Shown piece by piece: positions 54,855 to 64,000 of a stretch of DNA of 64,000 bases (positions within the stretch are counted from its first letter, which is position 1; each line of letters opens with the position of its first letter). A model generated the notes under the pieces. That model had not been told where the DNA came from. It saw nothing but the letters and a program-made list of their open reading frames with translations, and searched no databases. The stretch is from contig JANLFY010000002.1 in NCBI GenBank assembly GCA_024653485.1, positions 186,001 to 250,000 of the forward strand. The letters run 5' to 3'. Made by a program: the position numbers and the translations under genes. The DNA is from Bacillota bacterium (GTDB lineage Bacteria; Bacillota; SHA-98; UBA4971).

Positions 54855-55835
54855 ATGACGAGTTCTGGCGAGCCGATGACGGGTTCCAGCGAGGCGAGAC
54901 CGCGAGCGCTCGAGTATGCGGAGCTGAGGCTACCCGACCTGCAGGCGCTTGACCGAGCTACGACGGTGTTCCTCGTGAGCGTTAGCCCCATCGAGGTCCA
55001 TGGACCCCATCTTCCTGTGGGCACCGACGTGTTCGTCTCCGAGGAGCTTCTACGCCGCTATGCGGCCGCGCTTGCCGACCGCCACCCTGAGCTGACCTTC
55101 GTGAAGCTGCCGCCGCTCCACTGCGGGTCCGACGCGCTCCCCGTCCCGGGGTCGCTCTCGGTCCCGGCGCCGCACTTGGAGGGCGTGCTCGTCGCGTATG
55201 GCCGCGGCCTTGCGAAGCAGGGGTTCCGCTACCTCTTCGTGGCGGACAACCACGGCGGCCCGCGCCACCAGATGGCCGTCGAGGCGGCGGCTCGCACGCT
55301 GTGGCGCGGGCACAACTTCTATCTCATAGATCCTTTCGGCGTGGACTATCGGCTCATGGTGCAGCACGACCCGGATTTCCTTCGACGCACCGGTCTGGGC
55401 CCCGGGGCGTGCGGGGACGATGCCGACAACCATGCGGGCACCAACGAGACCTCGCTCATGCTCGCGTGCGACCCGGCGCGCGTGTCAACCGACTTTCACG
55501 AAGTCCCGCCGTCTCGTTTACCGCAGCGCCGCACAGGAGCGGTGGCGCTGGTGGCCGGTCTCGGCCGTGTGCTCCGGGCCCTGGGCGGGCGCGTCATCGG
55601 CAGCGACCTTGAGCATCTCGCGAACACCCTCGCCTGGGTCGGGGACCCAGCGATGAAGCCCTACATGGGTGACCCTGGCAGGGCAAGCGCGGGGGCTGGC
55701 GAGGCCATGCTATCCGCTCGCGTCGCACTCGGCGTGGACCTTTTCGAACGTGCTCTCGCGAGCGCCGGGCGCGCGCCTGTGCACATCACGCCCATGCTGT
55801 GGGGCGTGCGCTTCCTGCGCCGCCTGCCGGAGTAG
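54855..55835 (+). CDS. creatininase-family amidohydrolase
   Basis: A 326-aa creatininase-fold hydrolase, distinct from the one at 33096. SPIEVHGPHLPVGTDV provides the metal ligands Glu, His and Asp; VADNHGGPRHQMAVE the NHGG loop; NHAGTNETSLML the later His/Glu. GGAGGTGGAGCGAG precedes ATG 54855; the frame is open to 54777, but that is the C-terminal part of the previous gene. Substrate unknown: relatives act on creatinine, formamides and peptide-like maturation substrates. Confidence 0.9.
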   Translation: MTSSGEPMTGSSEARPRALEYAELRLPDLQALDRATTVFLVSVSPIEVHGPHLPVGTDVFVSEELLRRYAAALADRHPELTFVKLPPLHCGSDALPVPGSLSVPAPHLEGVLVAYGRGLAKQGFRYLFVADNHGGPRHQMAVEAAARTLWRGHNFYLIDPFGVDYRLMVQHDPDFLRRTGLGPGACGDDADNHAGTNETSLMLACDPARVSTDFHEVPPSRLPQRRTGAVALVAGLGRVLRALGGRVIGSDLEHLANTLAWVGDPAMKPYMGDPGRASAGAGEAMLSARVALGVDLFERALASAGRAPVHITPMLWGVRFLRRLPE

Positions 55836-57490: not shown

Positions 57491-58927
57491 ATGAACTTCA
57501 GGCGAGCAGTTGGTGTCCCAGACAGCAGAGCCGGATCTACCGGGGCGCCGTCGCTCAGGGGCCTGCTGGTGGCGGCGGTGGTCTTTCCCGTTATCGCGAT
57601 AGGCTGGATGAGCTGGGACGTGGCCCCGGTCCCGGTCCCGGTCCCGTCGTCTGCCGCGGCTGCGGCGGCGCCTGCACCCGGCGGCACGGCGCCGATGTGG
57701 CGATTCGTGGCGCGCCAGGTGGGCCCCACGGTGGTTGAGGTCCGCACTGACACGGGCATAGGCGCTGGATTCTTCATAAACCCTAACGGCTACGTCCTCA
57801 CCGCGGGCCATGTGGTAGCGGGTGCCCGGCATATCCGGGTGGTGCTCGCCGACGGAAGGACGGCGGCCGCCGAGGTCGTGGGAGCGTCGGACGTGCCGGA
57901 TGTGGCACTCATAAAGACCGACGCCGTGAACGTGCCCGTGGCGCGCCTGGGAAACTCGGATGCCCTTGAGCCGGGGGACCCGGTGCTGGTATTCGGAAGC
58001 CCGTTCGGATTGGACCACAGTCTCACGCAGGGTATAGTGAGCGGGCCGATCCGAGAGATCGGTGAGGCCCGTTACATACAGACAGACGCGAGCGTCAACA
58101 AGGGGACGAGTGGCGGCCCGCTGGTGAACTCCTCCGGCGAGGTCGTGGGGATCGTCGTTCGCTTGGCGAGGCAGGCGAGCGGCTTTGGGTTTGCGGTCCC
58201 GGTGGCAGACGTCGTTCCGCTGCTCGAGGCTTATGCTGTCAGGGCATCATGGACCCTGGATGGTCCGGGCACGGTCGCGCGACAGGCTGTTCCAAAAGGT
58301 GCGCCATCGGTTCTGATGATGGATGCGCCTCGCAATGTCCCTGGCAATGCTGCGGCCGACGTGATCATCGAGGCTCTCAGGTGGGCTGTGGTAGCGGCGG
58401 CACTCGTGGCCGTCGGCGGCTTTGCGCTGGTCGTGCTGGGGCGGATGAGGGCAAGAAGGCGGGCGACGACGCGTACGGGCGCGGCCGGCGCCCGTGGCGA
58501 GCGGGGCGAGCGCACCGGACGCGCACCCGTTGAGAGGAGGCGAGCATCTGGCGAATCGGACGAAGTCGAGGTGCGTCTCACTCGTCCCGCCAGCGTCACT
58601 CGTCCCGCTAGTCCCGGTCCTCTCGCCAGTTCCATCCGGTCACCCGCATCTGGGTCCGGGCCTGGGTCCGGCTCAGGGTCCGGCTGCGGTTCGGGGTCTA
58701 GTTCCGGGTCTGGGCCCGGGCCGGGGCTCGCGTCCGCGCCAGCGCCTGTGCCCGCGACCGAGGCGGCGGCTACGACCGAGGCGGCGTCCACGTCCGAGGC
58801 CGCGCCTGCCGCATCAGAGGACGACATCGAGATCGTCGTAATAAGAGGAGGTTTACACCGTGGGGAAGATCAATGTGAAGATCATGGACGCTACAGGGAG
58901 CAAGGAACAGGAGGCGACCGTTCCTGA
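57491..58927 (+). CDS. membrane-anchored trypsin-like serine protease
   Basis: A 478-aa HtrA/Do-type trypsin-fold protease. One membrane helix lies near residues 22-40, a short Pro/Ala-rich linker follows, then the protease domain with H107 (LTAGHVV), D137 (DVALI) and S207 (KGTSGGPL). No PDZ domain. A second helix lies near 298-320 (WAVVAAALVAVGGFALVVLG), followed by about 150 low-complexity residues including a Gly-Ser-rich stretch and an Ala/Thr/Glu-rich end. GGAGGTG lies eight bases before ATG 57491. With two helices the protease domain faces outward. Its end overlaps the ubiquitin-like gene by 68 bases in another frame, so the two are translationally linked. Confidence 0.85.
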   Translation: MNFRRAVGVPDSRAGSTGAPSLRGLLVAAVVFPVIAIGWMSWDVAPVPVPVPSSAAAAAAPAPGGTAPMWRFVARQVGPTVVEVRTDTGIGAGFFINPNGYVLTAGHVVAGARHIRVVLADGRTAAAEVVGASDVPDVALIKTDAVNVPVARLGNSDALEPGDPVLVFGSPFGLDHSLTQGIVSGPIREIGEARYIQTDASVNKGTSGGPLVNSSGEVVGIVVRLARQASGFGFAVPVADVVPLLEAYAVRASWTLDGPGTVARQAVPKGAPSVLMMDAPRNVPGNAAADVIIEALRWAVVAAALVAVGGFALVVLGRMRARRRATTRTGAAGARGERGERTGRAPVERRRASGESDEVEVRLTRPASVTRPASPGPLASSIRSPASGSGPGSGSGSGCGSGSSSGSGPGPGLASAPAPVPATEAAATTEAASTSEAAPAASEDDIEIVVIRGGLHRGEDQCEDHGRYREQGTGGDRS

Positions 58928-59129
58928 CGACACTCCTGTCCGCAGGATCATAGCGAAGCTGGTGGAGATGATGAACTTGCCCGCGACAGGCCCCGACGGC
59001 CAGCCCATAAGCTACAAATTCCATCACAAGGCCTCGGGCAGGCAGCTCGCTGACGAGGACACGCTTGCCGGTGCGGGAGTTAAGGACGGCGACGTGGTGA
59101 GGCTGCAGCCGGAGATCACAGCCGGCTAG
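58860..59129 (+). CDS. ubiquitin-like beta-grasp protein
   Basis: An 89-aa ubiquitin-like protein. Pattern: beta hairpin (INVKIMDATGSKEQEATVP), helix (TPVRRIIAKLVEMMNL), strand SYKFHH, then RQLADEDTLAGAGVKDGDVV, the classical ubiquitin-fold TL...GVxDGDvv segment, closest in style to YukD/EsaB-type domains. The C-terminus is RLQPEITAG, ending in a single exposed Gly rather than Gly-Gly. It starts at GTG 58860 with AGGAGGT seven bases upstream. The E1-like and JAB genes follow, so the exposed Gly is the likely site of adenylation and conjugation; target unknown. Confidence 0.88.
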   Translation: MGKINVKIMDATGSKEQEATVPDDTPVRRIIAKLVEMMNLPATGPDGQPISYKFHHKASGRQLADEDTLAGAGVKDGDVVRLQPEITAG

Positions 59130-59164
59130 CAAGGCCGCCGTCCGGAGGGAGGCGACACTAAGCG

Positions 59165-59183
59165 CCGGGTGTCGAGCACCCGG
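59165..59183 (+). other. hairpin 1 between ubiquitin-like and E1-like genes
   Basis: CCGGGTG-TCGAG-CACCCGG, a perfect 7-bp stem with a 5-base loop, 36 bases past the stop of the ubiquitin-like gene. Confidence 0.7.
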
Positions 59184-59208
59184 TACCGGCTGCCTGGCGG
59201 TAGGGGTT

Positions 59209-59249
59209 GCCGGGCGGTAGGGCGGCGAGACGCCGACCCGCCGCCCGGC
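59209..59249 (+). other. hairpin 2 between ubiquitin-like and E1-like genes
   Basis: GCCGGGCGG (59209-59217) pairs with CCGCCCGGC (59241-59249); inside, GGG pairs with CCC and GGCG with CGCC around a 3-base loop. No T-run. Together with hairpin 1 it may keep expression of the ubiquitin-like protein above that of the enzymes. Confidence 0.75.
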
Positions 59250-59359
59250 GGTGCCGCCGGTCGCGAACCATGTCACGACGTGATGATGCGGCGATGCCGG
59301 AGCGCTCACGCTACCGGGCGAGGTAGAGAGAATCCGAGAGGGGGAAAGGGGGGATTACT

Positions 59360-60556
59360 GTGGTGCCAAATACGCCGCCGCTCGTGGTGGACCTGGACGC
59401 GCCCGAGGATAGATATAGCCGCCTGCGTCTCATCCCGTGGTGGGACCAAGAGAAGCTCAGGCGGGCCAGGGTGATGGTGGTGGGCGCGGGCGCGCTCGGG
59501 AACGAACTGTTGAAAAGCCTGGCCCTGCTCGGGGTGGGGCACGTCCTCATTGTGGATCTAGACCGCATCGAAAACTCGAACCTTTCGCGTTCGGTCCTGT
59601 ACCGGGCAGAGGACGAGGGGGAGTTCAAGGCCGAGGTTGCGGCGAGGCGCGTGCGGGACATAAACCCCGACGTGCAGGCGAAGGCTGTGGTCGGCAACGT
59701 CATCACCGATATCGGCCTAGGCGTCTTCCGCGCAATGGATGTGGTGCTCGGGGGGCTGGACAACCGGGAGGCGAGGGTCGCGATAAACCAGAGCTGCTGG
59801 CGCACGGGCACGCCGTGGGTGGATGGAGCCATCGAGGTGCTCATCGGCGTTGCCAAGGTGTTCGTCCCGCCCGACGGCCCGTGCTACGAGTGTACCATGG
59901 GAGAGACCGATTACCGGCTGCTCAATCTGAGGAAGTCCTGCACCTTGCTGAGCCGTGGCGAGATGCTGGCAGGGAAGGTCCCCACCACGCCCACGACGGC
60001 CTCGGTGATCGCCGGTATCCAGGTGCAGGAGGCTGTGAAGCTGATTCACGGCCGGCCGGACCTACCCATCTTATCCGGCCGGGGGTTCGTATACAACGGT
60101 CTCACGTACGATTCCTATGTGGTCTCCTACGCGAGACGGAGCGACTGTCCGGCTCACGATAGCTTCGGCGAGGTTCTGACAACGCCGCTCTCCGCACACG
60201 AAACGACCCTCGGCCAGGCGCTCAGCCTCGCCCGAGAACTGCTCGGCCGGGACGCGGTCCTCGAGTTCTCGAGGGAACTGATCACAGGGTTTACGTGTGA
60301 GCGGTGCGGGACCTCGGCGCGGCGCATAGACCAACTCGGACGGCTTACGGAGAGCGACGCGCGCTGCCCGGGCTGCGGCGGGATGCGACAGCCCGAGTTC
60401 ACCCACTCGATACAGGGTAATGAGCCGTACCTCGATATGACGCTCAAGGATGCGGGAATCCCTCCTTTCGATATCCTGACCGCCCGGGACGGTCTCAAAA
60501 TGGTTCACTTCGAGCTGGGAGGGGACCGAGAGGAGACACTGGGAGGCCCGGGATGA
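59360..60556 (+). CDS. E1-like (ThiF/MoeB family) ubiquitin-activating enzyme
   Basis: A 398-aa adenylating enzyme. VMVVGAGALGNELLKSLALL is the nucleotide loop, IVDLDRIENSNLSRSVLY carries the acidic and Arg residues for ATP, and C175-x2-C178 is the first zinc pair. C194 in RKSCTLLSRGE, before VPTTPTTASVIAGIQVQEAV, is the likely catalytic Cys that forms the thioester. The C-terminal third adds a second zinc ribbon (C313-x2-C316, C336-x2-C339) and a FDILTARDG...HFELGGD tail not found in ThiF or MoeB. It starts at GTG 59360 with GGGGAAAGGGGGG upstream and overlaps the JAB gene by ATGA. It should activate the C-terminal Gly of the neighbouring ubiquitin-like protein. Confidence 0.9.
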   Translation: MVPNTPPLVVDLDAPEDRYSRLRLIPWWDQEKLRRARVMVVGAGALGNELLKSLALLGVGHVLIVDLDRIENSNLSRSVLYRAEDEGEFKAEVAARRVRDINPDVQAKAVVGNVITDIGLGVFRAMDVVLGGLDNREARVAINQSCWRTGTPWVDGAIEVLIGVAKVFVPPDGPCYECTMGETDYRLLNLRKSCTLLSRGEMLAGKVPTTPTTASVIAGIQVQEAVKLIHGRPDLPILSGRGFVYNGLTYDSYVVSYARRSDCPAHDSFGEVLTTPLSAHETTLGQALSLARELLGRDAVLEFSRELITGFTCERCGTSARRIDQLGRLTESDARCPGCGGMRQPEFTHSIQGNEPYLDMTLKDAGIPPFDILTARDGLKMVHFELGGDREETLGGPG

Positions 60557-61611
60557 CACGGACGAGCGGGGTGAGCGACGTGGTCATCATCGTGAGCGAG
60601 CAGGCTTTCAGATTCATGGAGCAGTTTGCCAGGGGCGATACCTCGCGTGAGCGGGGCGGGGTGCTGGTCGGCCGGCATTCGAACGACGTCTCGTCGCTGC
60701 TATGGGCAGCGTGGGGCGAGAGCGGTAGCTGCCATGTAGACGCAGACGCAGATAGAGATGTAGATGCGGACACAAACACAGGTGCTGGCCCGGACAGAGA
60801 CGCAGACACAGACACAGACGCAGGCGTAGGCACCGATGCAGACGTCGGCGATGCCGGTGGGTGCGCGACGGAAGGCGGCATCGGCTCCGCAGCAGGCCCT
60901 GCGAAGGCCTGCCCCGCTGCGTGGAGCGACACGGGGGCGTCGAGGCGGGCCGAGGCGGACGCTGGTATGTCGCGTCAACCAGGCATCCTCGTGGCGGCAG
61001 CCATAGAGGCGCGATTCAGCGAGGCCAAGAGAGCAAGCCTGACGTTTACCCACGAGACGTGGCGATATATCTACGAGGTCATGGAACAACGGTATCCGGG
61101 ACAAAAGATCGTAGGGTGGTTCCACACCCACCCGGGGTTTGGGGTGTTCCTGTCTGGCCACGACATGTTCATCCAGAAGCATTTCTTCGACCAGCCGTGG
61201 CAGGTGGCGTACGTCATCGACCCTGTGGCCCAGTCGCGGGGGTTCTTCCGATGGCAAGGCGGAGAGGTGGTCTCGTGTGAGGACTTCCTCATTCTCGGCG
61301 GGGACGGAACGCTTGCGACGTTTAGATGCAAGGTCAGGGCTAGGGCCAGGGGGGATGTAGAGGGCGCGATCATGCCCAGGCCTTGGTCTCGGCCCGCGCC
61401 TGCGCCCTGGGCTGGCGAGCTCGTGCAGGCTCCTTCCGGCTCCCGTACCCTTGATGGTTCCAGGACTGCCCCGCGTACAGCTCCGTTACCGGTCACGGGA
61501 GACGCTAACGCCGGAGGACGGCCGTCAGGCCCGCAGGAGCGCTCCTGCTCCAGGCGGGACGTGGATTACTTACAGCGAGAGGGGCCTTCAGGCCAGGGCG
61601 GAAGCCGTTAG
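60553..61611 (+). CDS. JAMM/JAB isopeptidase with Asp-rich insert
   Basis: A 352-aa metalloprotease of the JAB/MPN+ type. E33 in SRERGGVLVG and H191-x-H193-P...S201-x2-D204 (HTHPGFGVFLSGHD) form the complete JAMM zinc site, so it is predicted active. Relatives remove ubiquitin or process its precursor. Residues about 59-140 are a low-complexity insert rich in Asp, Ala, Thr and Gly, encoded by imperfect GACGCAGAC/GACACAGAC repeats; the C-terminal ~90 residues are also Pro/Ser/Arg-rich. The catalytic fold resumes at ILVAAAIEARFSEAKRASLT. The start overlaps the E1-like stop. The ubiquitin-like protein already ends in Gly, so de-conjugation seems more likely than maturation. Confidence 0.9.
   Translation: MTRTSGVSDVVIIVSEQAFRFMEQFARGDTSRERGGVLVGRHSNDVSSLLWAAWGESGSCHVDADADRDVDADTNTGAGPDRDADTDTDAGVGTDADVGDAGGCATEGGIGSAAGPAKACPAAWSDTGASRRAEADAGMSRQPGILVAAAIEARFSEAKRASLTFTHETWRYIYEVMEQRYPGQKIVGWFHTHPGFGVFLSGHDMFIQKHFFDQPWQVAYVIDPVAQSRGFFRWQGGEVVSCEDFLILGGDGTLATFRCKVRARARGDVEGAIMPRPWSRPAPAPWAGELVQAPSGSRTLDGSRTAPRTAPLPVTGDANAGGRPSGPQERSCSRRDVDYLQREGPSGQGGSR
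60735..60855 (+). repeat. Asp/Ala-coding low-complexity repeat within the JAB gene
   Basis: Imperfect 6/9-base units such as GACGCA, GACACA and GATGCA run for about 120 bases, keeping the reading frame. It is coded as DADAD, DADTDTDAG and similar. It looks like in-frame slippage expansion. Confidence 0.75.
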
Positions 61612-61626
61612 CAGGGCGGGTCGCGC

Positions 61627-62094
61627 GTGGCCATCCCGGAGAGCGGGCGAATCGTGGATTACCGCGCGTCTGGCCCGACGCGGCGAGCCCAGGGGCAGCC
61701 CGATGTGCTCCGCCCGAGCCGGCGAGGATGTGTTGGGGGCGCCCGTTACCCGGATCCAGTGCCGGGGCGACTGATAGCTATAGCCATCTGGCTTGTCTTG
61801 GTCGCGGCGCTCGTCTGGTTTCTCCGTTGCCCGCCGGCTGGGCGGTCGGAGCGACCGAGGCTGCGGGAGCAACCTGGGGGAAGTGGGCCATCAGGGCAAG
61901 ATGGGGTCGCTGTCGCAGACAACCTGTCTATCGAGATGGGCTACCGGGTCCAGCCAGGCGACACTCTATGGGGGATCAGTGCTTACTACTACGGAACGGG
62001 CACTCGGTATCGGGAACTAGCATTGAGGAATGGGCTATCCGATCCGGACCGCATCTACTACGGAACAGTGCTGATCGTGCCTCTTTCGGAGTGA
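61627..62094 (+). CDS. membrane-anchored LysM protein
   Basis: A 155-aa protein. A cytoplasmic Arg-rich N-terminus and a membrane helix (about 49-67, RLIAIAIWLVLVAALVWFL) are followed by a linker and a C-terminal LysM domain (YRVQPGDTLWGISAYYYG ... GTVLIVPL), which binds peptidoglycan or chitin-type GlcNAc chains. It starts at GTG 61627, 15 bases after the JAB stop, with AGGGCGGG upstream, so it belongs to the same operon. It could tether the system to the cell wall; this is inference. Confidence 0.8.
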   Translation: MAIPESGRIVDYRASGPTRRAQGQPDVLRPSRRGCVGGARYPDPVPGRLIAIAIWLVLVAALVWFLRCPPAGRSERPRLREQPGGSGPSGQDGVAVADNLSIEMGYRVQPGDTLWGISAYYYGTGTRYRELALRNGLSDPDRIYYGTVLIVPLSE

Positions 62095-62220
62095 GGGATG
62101 CCCTGCAACCCTATAACCCCACTGAACGAGCACAGGAAAGGCCTGATATCAGGCTCCGGCCCTGGCACAGGACGACTTCGGCCTTGCCATGGTGCGGGGG
62201 TGAGACGCTTCGCAAGGCGG

Positions 62221-62252
62221 ACGGCCCCGGGGACTTTCTAGACCGGGGCCGT
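62221..62252. terminator. hairpin between convergent LysM and RING-like genes
   Basis: ACGGCCCCGG pairs perfectly with CCGGGGCCGT around a 12-base loop. It lies between two convergent stops, which suits a bidirectional terminator, though neither side has a clear T-run. Confidence 0.5.
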
Positions 62253-62293
62253 CAGTCATGCCTCATCCTGACGATACCTCACTTCAATGTCCT

Positions 62294-62716
62294 TCAAGCC
62301 CGCGCCCGGCACCCGTAGAGGGCGCAGCCGTGGTTATCCTGCCAGCAGTCAGCATGATAGACCCGCCCGCAACCCGGGCACTCAACAACTTGCGCCGACC
62401 TGCCTAACGTGGTGGTGCAGTACGGGCAAACTTTGCCCACCTCGGACGGCCTGGCCACTCTCGGGCGCCCGGCGCCAGGCTGGACTGGCACGTTCCTACC
62501 CCTTGAATGTGCCGGGGCGAGAAGAGGGGACCGCCAAGGTGGTTGAGGACACGAGCGTGAGGTCGGCGATGTCCCCGGGTCTGACCACGCACCAGACAGC
62601 GCCAGCCCGATGAATAGGCCGATCAATGCCCCCACAGGTCCGGCTATCGCTCCGCCGATTACGAGCAGAATTAGCGGTAGGAAGCATCCTCCGCATCCGT
62701 TGTCAGTTTTGGCCAT
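62294..62716 (-). CDS. membrane protein with C-terminal prokaryotic RING/PHD-type zinc finger
   Basis: A 140-aa protein. A glycine-zipper-type membrane segment (about 12-42: LPLILLVIGGAIAGPVGALI and following) is followed by a Pro/Ser/Arg linker and a binuclear zinc finger with ligands C97, C100, C113, C116, H121, C124, C131 and C136 (CPYC, CPGC, VYHADCW, GCALYGC). The C4-H-C3 order fits the RING/PHD treble-clef group, in particular the predicted prokaryotic RING families. AGGAG precedes ATG 62716. It is convergent with the ubiquitin-like operon. A RING beside E1, ubiquitin-like and JAB genes suggests an E3-like role; that is inference. Confidence 0.75.
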   Translation of the reverse strand: MAKTDNGCGGCFLPLILLVIGGAIAGPVGALIGLFIGLALSGAWSDPGTSPTSRSCPQPPWRSPLLAPAHSRGRNVPVQPGAGRPRVARPSEVGKVCPYCTTTLGRSAQVVECPGCGRVYHADCWQDNHGCALYGCRARA

Positions 62717-63136
62717 TCTTCTCCTGAGCCTCCTTCAGTAAGGAAAGGTAACTAGCACCAGCGCCTGCGCTCTCATTGATGTTGGCAGCGAAGGTCGACA
62801 TCGATGACAGCCTAGGAGCGCGCTACTGCGCTTGACCCTGCGATGATGCCACCCTGAAGTCGCCACGAAGGGCCTCGCGCGTTCCGGTTCTGTATAGATT
62901 GTAAACGCATGGCGCGACATTCGCCGACCGCACGCTGGCGTCCCGGTCCTGTACGCAGGTCCCCCGAACCGTTTGCATGCGGCCACATTGTCAAACCGGG
63001 TATTGGCACTCGGACCATCCGATGGTAAGATGGAGGTGTCTCCACGCAGCAGAATCGTCTTGCGCAATGGACTTGCACTTTCGCGGCAACTCCTGGACAG
63101 AACACATTTCACGCCCGCTCAGGAGGGTGACGCGGC
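62717..63136. other. divergent promoter region
   Basis: No gene is supportable. It contains the SD of the RING-like gene, a good + strand promoter (63003-63031) and the SD of the following gene (GGAGGG at about 63122-63127). Confidence 0.5.
63003..63031 (+). promoter_or_regulatory. sigma-70-type promoter TTGGCA-17-TAAGAT
   Basis: TTGGCA (63003-63008), exactly 17 bases, TAAGAT (63026-63031); predicted start about 100 bases before ATG 63137. Confidence 0.7.
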
Positions 63137-64000
63137 ATGGACGATTTCCTAGCCCATCCCCGGGAGTGGCCCGGGTCGCGCTTTGAGTTCCTTCGTCCGC
63201 TGTATCCTGATAAGCGTCCACTTGCGTGCCCCATTCACTCCTCCCGCGACGTGAGGCTGGCGCTGGAAGAGCTTTTCCGTAGCTTTCGAGTGCGAGGTCC
63301 CGGGGACAACGCGGGCGAGAGGTCCAGGCAGAGTGCCATAATCGGCGCCATCATCGGGTTACTTCTTGGGCTGTCACCCATGGGGCCTCTCTTCGGCGTG
63401 ATAGGGATGGCGATAGGCATTGCCTTAGGAGTAGCGTCAGGCCTTGGAGTCCAAGAGGCCGCGCAGCTGTTCGTCAACAGGCACGCGGCCGCACTCAAAG
63501 CGGTGGAGCGGGGTGACTACACCCATGCCATCGCTATCTACCGGAAATGCTTCGAGGAGCTGTTCGAGGGAGGAAAGGACGAGCTTTTCCTTCACTACCT
63601 TCGCAAGCTCGGCGGCGAGGACGTAGACAAGGAAGGACGGATGCTCGGCGCTGCATACCTTGCAGCATGCGGCTTGCTCAACCAGGTGCAGGCTTGGAGT
63701 CCTGGTGCGCACGGCCAGCTGAGGCGGCAAGCGCTCGAAGACTACCGCAGGAGCCTCGAGTACTGCCCTTCCAACCAGGCCGTCCTCCAGACCTACATCA
63801 GCCTTCTGGACTTGCGCGACCCGGGCGACGTGTCGAACGCCATCAGAGCTCTCGAGACCTCCCTGCGCCATCTGGAGGAGACCACACCCGATGACGGCCG
63901 GGAGGCGCCATGGTGGAACGAGGAGCTAATTGGAATATTCGAGCTCTGGGCTAAGGTGCAGCCACATGACACCGAGAACCTCCGCCGCCTTGCAAACTGT
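63137..64000 (+). CDS. membrane protein with helical (TPR-like) repeats, truncated by the window edge
   Basis: The frame is open to the right edge (288 codons seen). After a ~65-residue N-terminal region, residues 67-105 are a double glycine-zipper membrane segment (SAIIGAIIGLLLGLSP, then GPLFGVIGMAIGIALG) similar in style to that of the RING-like protein. It is followed by helical repeats of TPR type (ALKAVERGDYTHAIAIYRKC, ALEDYRRSLEYCPSNQAVLQ, NAIRALETSL). GGAGGGTG precedes ATG 63137. Shared glycine-zipper helices suggest it may pack with the RING-like protein in the membrane. What lies at its C-terminus is outside the window. Confidence 0.75.
   Translation, partial: MDDFLAHPREWPGSRFEFLRPLYPDKRPLACPIHSSRDVRLALEELFRSFRVRGPGDNAGERSRQSAIIGAIIGLLLGLSPMGPLFGVIGMAIGIALGVASGLGVQEAAQLFVNRHAAALKAVERGDYTHAIAIYRKCFEELFEGGKDELFLHYLRKLGGEDVDKEGRMLGAAYLAACGLLNQVQAWSPGAHGQLRRQALEDYRRSLEYCPSNQAVLQTYISLLDLRDPGDVSNAIRALETSLRHLEETTPDDGREAPWWNEELIGIFELWAKVQPHDTENLRRLANC

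Follow-up and report, generated by a model that had tools for sequence, protein, structure and literature searches.

Within the 64-kb window considered here (the whole stretch of 64,000 nucleotides at positions 186,001 to 250,000 of contig JANLFY010000002.1, from the Bacillota bacterium assembly GCA_024653485.1), the genes between positions 57491 and 62716 encode an HtrA-like protease, a ubiquitin-like protein (Ubl), an E1-like activating enzyme, a JAB isopeptidase with a LysM half and a RING-type zinc finger protein. This locus is probably one copy of a widespread and complete bacterial E1–E2–RING system for Ubl conjugation, tethered to the cytoplasmic membrane. The evidence consists of gene content, conservation, catalytic residues, the recurrence of a short motif and predicted topology. 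To our knowledge, few full E1–E2–RING cascades occur outside eukaryotes; the E1 and E2 sequences of this one are eukaryote-like, and the system spans several phyla.

A profile built from two E1s recovered 173 stretches in named genomes, of which the best 80 were analysed; the neighbourhood counts refer to the 36 loci with adequate flanks, and the component profiles were iterated inside the fetched loci until the set of components was steady. The combination of protease, YukD-type Ubl, E1, JAB and Prok-RING recurs near E1 homologues in Bacillota, Armatimonadota, Planctomycetota and other phyla, with Ubl and JAB in all 36 loci, RING in 35, E2 in 32, protease in 29 and an FHA protein in 28. The arrangement is shared by E1 homologues of different phyla and hence not due to chance, and the comparison of neighbourhoods proposed in an earlier note on this DNA shows the set not to be peculiar to one genome. 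Named strains that carry it include Anoxynatronum buryatiense, Clostridium weizhouense and Massiliimalia massiliensis. E2 and FHA are usually fused in the Clostridia of the set, and protease and RING are fused in the Planctomycetota branch. Bacterial neighbourhoods of RING (Prok-RING_1, PF14446), E1, E2, JAB and YukD-like Ubl genes were reportedly predicted by Burroughs, Jaffe, Iyer and Aravind in 2011, with the same component set and the same RING family as found here, and the window locus is very likely a member of the kind that they are said to have described. A Prok-RING_1 finger stands beside Ubl, E1 and JAB in 35 of the 36 full loci, and the window has all four. The SUMO-interacting motif (SIM)-like sequence, the split of the JAB-LysM protein, the protease topology, the split of the genomic island and the phylum-wide synteny counts described below come from the present analysis, although the 2011 prediction may already contain some of them.

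The Ubl gene (58860–59129, + strand) encodes 89 residues with a single Ubl domain, a YukD-type beta-grasp (Pfam YukD, 2.6e-14), and the protein terminates exactly at PEITAG. This sequence is present in 75/75 Ubl homologues and forms the exact C-terminus in 23, the window Ubl among these. The closest folds to its AlphaFold2 (AF2) model (predicted local distance difference test score, pLDDT, 91.5) are the ubiquitin of Caldiarchaeum subterraneum and SUMO1; there is also a weak match to EccD. The E1 gene (59360–60556, + strand; ThiF, 1.3e-55) specifies 398 residues with one adenylation domain, in which C194, C175, C263, H266 and C313/C316/C336/C339 are invariant in 37 homologues (CxxC...CxxH, C-terminal Cys4). 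Its profile matches UBA7, UBA1 and UBA3 at 5e-42 to 1e-36, as against 1e-27 to 1e-25 for ThiF/MoeB, and the top fold match of its AF2 model (pLDDT 89.4) is UBA3, the NEDD8 E1 chain, followed by ThiF.

The JAB/JAMM isopeptidase (HTHPGFGVFLSGHD) is encoded at 60553–61611 (+ strand; JAB, 5e-7), and its catalytic residues E33, H191, H193, S201 and D204 are invariant across 36 homologues. An Asp-rich low-complexity insertion (window 60700–60990, DADADRDVDADTNT...) lies within the domain and was not seen by eye in relatives. An in-frame TAG (61609–61611, + strand), within a short tandem duplication (QGGSR*QGGSR), divides the JAB from the C-terminal half of what is a JAB-TM-LysM protein, this half (61627–62094, + strand) comprising a transmembrane (TM) helix and LysM (2e-12) in the same frame. 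LysM is fused C-terminally in one polypeptide in 17 of 36 related JABs. Thus, of the five + strand genes recognized in the earlier note, the protease, Ubl, E1 and JAB families stand, but LysM is not a fifth gene, as the shared frame, the single TAG and the fused relatives indicate. The convergent gene (62294–62716, − strand) encodes a membrane C4HC3 RING-type finger, as the same note had it, which matches Prok-RING_1 at 1.7e-8 and whose eight zinc-ligand columns are kept in 30 homologues. A check of the folds of this finger and of the 89-residue protein, also proposed there, placed them in the Prok-RING and Ubl families rather than in unrelated ones.

The HtrA/DegS-like trypsin protease (57491–58927, + strand; Trypsin_2, 1.3e-31; degP/DegS models) has two TM helices, with a predicted layout of TM helix, extracytoplasmic trypsin domain, second TM helix and basic cytosolic tail. 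One helix on each side of the trypsin domain, mostly with basic residues thereafter, is predicted in 31 of 46 proteases, so the trypsin domain should lie outside and the tail inside; like all topology counts given here, this is based on hydropathy. A role for the protease as a cytosolic deconjugating enzyme is disfavoured by this topology. One or two TM helices follow the domain in 77 of 109 JABs; LysM would lie outside, and JAB would therefore be tied to the cell wall. In 82 of 95 RING proteins TM helices come after the finger, whereas in the window RING they are N-terminal to it, a position judged by eye. The conservation of the set across phyla, the C-terminal helices of RING and JAB, and the helix-flanked proteases together support the proposal of a membrane-linked system, though the support does not extend to the membrane or envelope target that had been proposed with it.

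No E2 is encoded within the 64-kb window. One is encoded elsewhere on the same contig, 32–33 kb beyond the cluster (C2:279105–279629, + strand; window-equivalent 93105–93629); it matches UQ_con at 8.2e-7, has HPN and the catalytic Cys, and shares 58% identity with its counterpart in genome G247, where the gene order is E2, protease, FHA, WYL, WYL, membrane protein. Across the E2 family, H161-P162-N163 and C169 are invariant, and the profile matches eukaryotic UBC enzymes at 1.6e-11. Neighbouring genes of the E2 encode two WYL-WCX regulators and, in addition, a membrane protein similar to one that adjoins the G247 cluster; no FHA gene was found in this genome's copy of the system.

On the free ends of the protease, E2 and JAB, a short motif of acidic and hydrophobic residues is found repeatedly (D-phi-[DE]-[IL]-x-phi). 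At the C-terminus it is carried by every one of the 35 proteases of the Bacillota/Armatimonadota branch that are not fused (against 1.0 expected from shuffling) and by 15 of 23 E2s (0.5 expected), and it lies N-terminal to the JAB domain in 30 of 80 cases (3.9 expected); in background tails it occurs in 4 of 711. A variant is found in 23 of 24 E2–FHA linkers. The motif goes with separate protease and RING proteins and is missing where the two are fused (0/9). The window protease has EDDIEIVVI in its tail (58817–58843), and the E2 of this genome ends in a form of the motif, DSDVDIVLR. As the E2 profile itself extends over the tail, counting after the UBC domain gave no information, and the tail and linker counts were used instead; L061 and the G247 locus (L039) are one contig, and L061 was excluded from the motif counts. 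A SUMO-interacting motif consists of a hydrophobic core with flanking acids and binds the groove of SUMO. The recurrent, enriched motif resembles it in sequence pattern, and, given the SUMO-like Ubl fold, SIM-like docking would be the simplest guess as to its role.

For the scheme that can be drawn from these observations, we infer activity, the partner of the motif, the direction of signalling and the targets. The Ubl would have AG as its C-terminus, either from the start or after trimming; E1 would adenylate it and carry it on C194; and the E2 encoded 32–33 kb away would receive it from E1 through its HPN-associated catalytic Cys. The membrane RING protein would then steer transfer to membrane-proximal targets, and the membrane JAB, anchored to the wall via LysM, would trim and remove the Ubl. 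Because the same SIM-like motif is found on the cytosolic tail of the outward-facing protease, the E2 tail and the N-terminus of JAB, these three proteins are probably gathered on one partner, which would most likely be the SUMO-like Ubl, and envelope stress would in this way be linked to conjugation. Thus laid out, the pathway would, we infer, work like a eukaryotic membrane RING pathway. A more specific version, which is put forward tentatively and may well prove wrong, is a bacterial SUMO-like system in which the motif on protease, E2, E2–FHA linker and JAB brings the enzymes of conjugation and deconjugation together at the membrane, such that an external envelope signal leads to protein tagging inside. 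If the system is active, ubiquitin-like tagging would be an envelope function in bacteria, and the origin of the combination of membrane RING ligases, SIM-like docking and JAMM removal could be approached with a testable model. Through the motif, whether the parts cooperate becomes checkable by simple binding and mutation.

Several observations weigh against a membrane-tethered conjugation system, in general or in this organism. Classical YukD has been reported to be unconjugated (PMC1779556). The zinc finger has only weak sequence matches in the PDB, and these are to PHD fingers, although its best family match is Prok-RING_1; the C4HC3 pattern is also that of PHD. Motif and topology were discovered and counted on one and the same set of loci. 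The window JAB lacks the N-terminal motif, and the motif, which the Planctomycetota branch does not have, cannot be essential to the whole family. Finally, in the window copy the E2 is split off, a stop separates JAB from LysM, and the 3′ end of the protease gene is altered.

The last of these points leads to the view that the locus was broken on acquisition and is non-working in this organism, in a family that is otherwise functional, which we consider unlikely but to be taken seriously. In sister genomes, the flanking creatininase gene (which ends at window position 55835) is close to the flanking gene on the right (window-equivalent 93771), with a glycosidase between them. Here, the glycosidase is reduced to an 84-bp remnant (93638–93721), nine bases past the E2 stop, and therefore some 37.8 kb has been inserted between the flanks. 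This island contains the window cluster, the TPR, DUF697 and two dynamin genes, a type III (Cmr) CRISPR-Cas system with its array, regulators and the E2, which lies at the far edge and is separated from the window cluster by the dynamin and CRISPR genes. The island is absent from the sister genomes, and the E1 from 12/12 other genomes of the family, which have at most a ThiF/MoeB-like match. The earlier note's overlaps between protease and Ubl and between E1 and JAB are both present; the former arises because the protease frame continues beyond its tail motif into the Ubl gene. Protease homologues have a stop directly after the same motif, and a TAATAA stands one base out of phase, immediately 5′ of the Ubl ribosome-binding site AGAGGAGG, so that the protease gene looks as if it had lost its stop codon. 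Both this altered end and the JAB/LysM TAG could be real lesions or assembly errors. Displacement of the E2, these two changes and the lack of a detected FHA gene would all fit a broken locus. Against this, the catalytic residues are kept in E1, Ubl, E2, RING and the JAB core, and the E2 retains its terminal motif. As far as sequence can tell, the family as a whole looks functional, whereas the window copy, with its cluster split within the island and its JAB/LysM stop, may be partly decayed.

Anti-phage defence, in which phage or own proteins would be tagged upon infection as in Bil, Bub or type II CBASS (cyclic oligonucleotide-based antiphage signalling system), appears rather improbable. 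E1, E2, JAB and Ubl parts are common to defence systems, and the window copy shares its island with a type III CRISPR-Cas system, a CRISPR array and LeoA/LeoBC-like dynamins; the CRISPR and dynamin genes, however, are not recurrent beside other loci. No relative was found on the viral contigs searched. Plasmids gave one 38% match, in Crinalium, the others being weaker. The E1 tree groups by phylum, needing no more than the minimum number of changes between phyla, unlike the picture expected for rampantly exchanged defence genes, and the protease and LysM parts indicate the envelope. Type II CBASS has a cGAS-like CD-NTase and an E1–E2 fusion, whereas here E1 and E2 are separate genes and there is no CD-NTase among the recurrent neighbours. 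The BilABCD operon resembles the present locus in having Ubl, E2, E1 and JAB. We know of no RING/LysM-JAB/HtrA set in Bub operons. These are likewise conjugation operons and are often WYL-regulated (PMC13373217); the WYL-WCX pair beside the E2, both here and in L039, would speak for defence. BilA has two Ubl domains and BilD is a pseudodimeric E1 (PMC11354881), features absent here: the window locus has a single Ubl domain and an E1 of about 400 residues with one adenylation domain, together with membrane anchors, RING, protease and, in the family, FHA, and the PADLOC match to BilD is weak.

It is very improbable that the locus is a structural or type VII secretion-linked YukD module whose Ubl is never conjugated. 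YukD of type VII secretion adjoins EssC/FtsK ATPase and WXG100 genes; neither was present among the window open reading frames examined, nor were EssC/FtsK, WXG100 or YueB genes among the recurrent neighbours examined. Membership of Pfam YukD, the weak EccD match and the reported lack of YukD conjugation would favour such a module, whereas PEITAG is invariant, and E1, E2 with its HPN and Cys, JAB and RING are all adjacent in the family. That E1 and Ubl serve sulfur transfer like MoeB/MoaD or ThiF/ThiS, with JAB and protease outside conjugation, is least credible of all, since, despite the ThiF fold of the adenylation domain and the ThiF/MoeB proteins among its top fold matches, the E1 profile is nearer eukaryotic E1s, nearly all full loci have E2 and RING, and the genome encodes a separate ThiF/MoeB-like protein.

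Among known systems, the C. subterraneum operon, in which Ub, E1, E2, RING and an Rpn11-like JAB occur together, has the solved Ub fold closest to the window Ubl; it differs in being archaeal and in having RING-H2 in place of C4HC3, and no HtrA protease or LysM is reported for it (PMC11354881). The window protease has in common with the DegS/HtrA envelope proteases its trypsin domain and outward topology, but its scores fall well short of the cut-offs for DegS and HtrA, and it has a cytosolic tail with the shared motif. In NCBIfam no named family was found for Ubl, JAB, RING or E2, the only models to fit being distant HtrA/DegS (protease) and ThiF/MoeB (E1) ones. Literature searches found no experimental study of a Prok-RING/E1/E2/JAB/YukD-like Ubl system, and a PDB sequence search no solved structure of its components. 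A Prok-JAB match elsewhere in the genome (C3:148737) is the housekeeping RadC gene and not the JAB of the system.

The TPR gene downstream, counted as a member in the earlier note, overlaps the DUF697 gene and adjoins the two dynamin genes; neither TPR nor dynamin genes have homologues in the other loci, and both were rejected as parts of the system. More probably, the TPR gene is part of the adjacent dynamin module, whose pair of dynamin-like GTPases similar to LeoA/LeoBC is encoded on the − strand at L002:11686–15664 (window-equivalent 65686–69664), beside DUF697 and TPR. Beyond it, from L002:16618 to L129 (C2:256618–270469), the type III (Cmr) CRISPR-Cas genes include one for a CARF-type protein and are accompanied by an array, seen as reading frames with repeat-like 'FQFPMGIRRSCY'; cas4/cas1-like and cas2-like genes come next. 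In one sister genome the same chromosomal site (G012:C65:31536–46451, L140) is occupied by another insertion, a cluster of sugar-transport and glycosidase genes, and the site may therefore be an insertion hot spot. Among the related loci, a second, more divergent E2-like protein is encoded immediately upstream of the protease in several from Armatimonadota and Gelria (L048, L053, L054, L062, L071 and L076), and an RDD-like membrane protein with zinc ribbons adjoins the cluster in 13 loci (e.g. L108:13916–14734), mostly in Planctomycetota.

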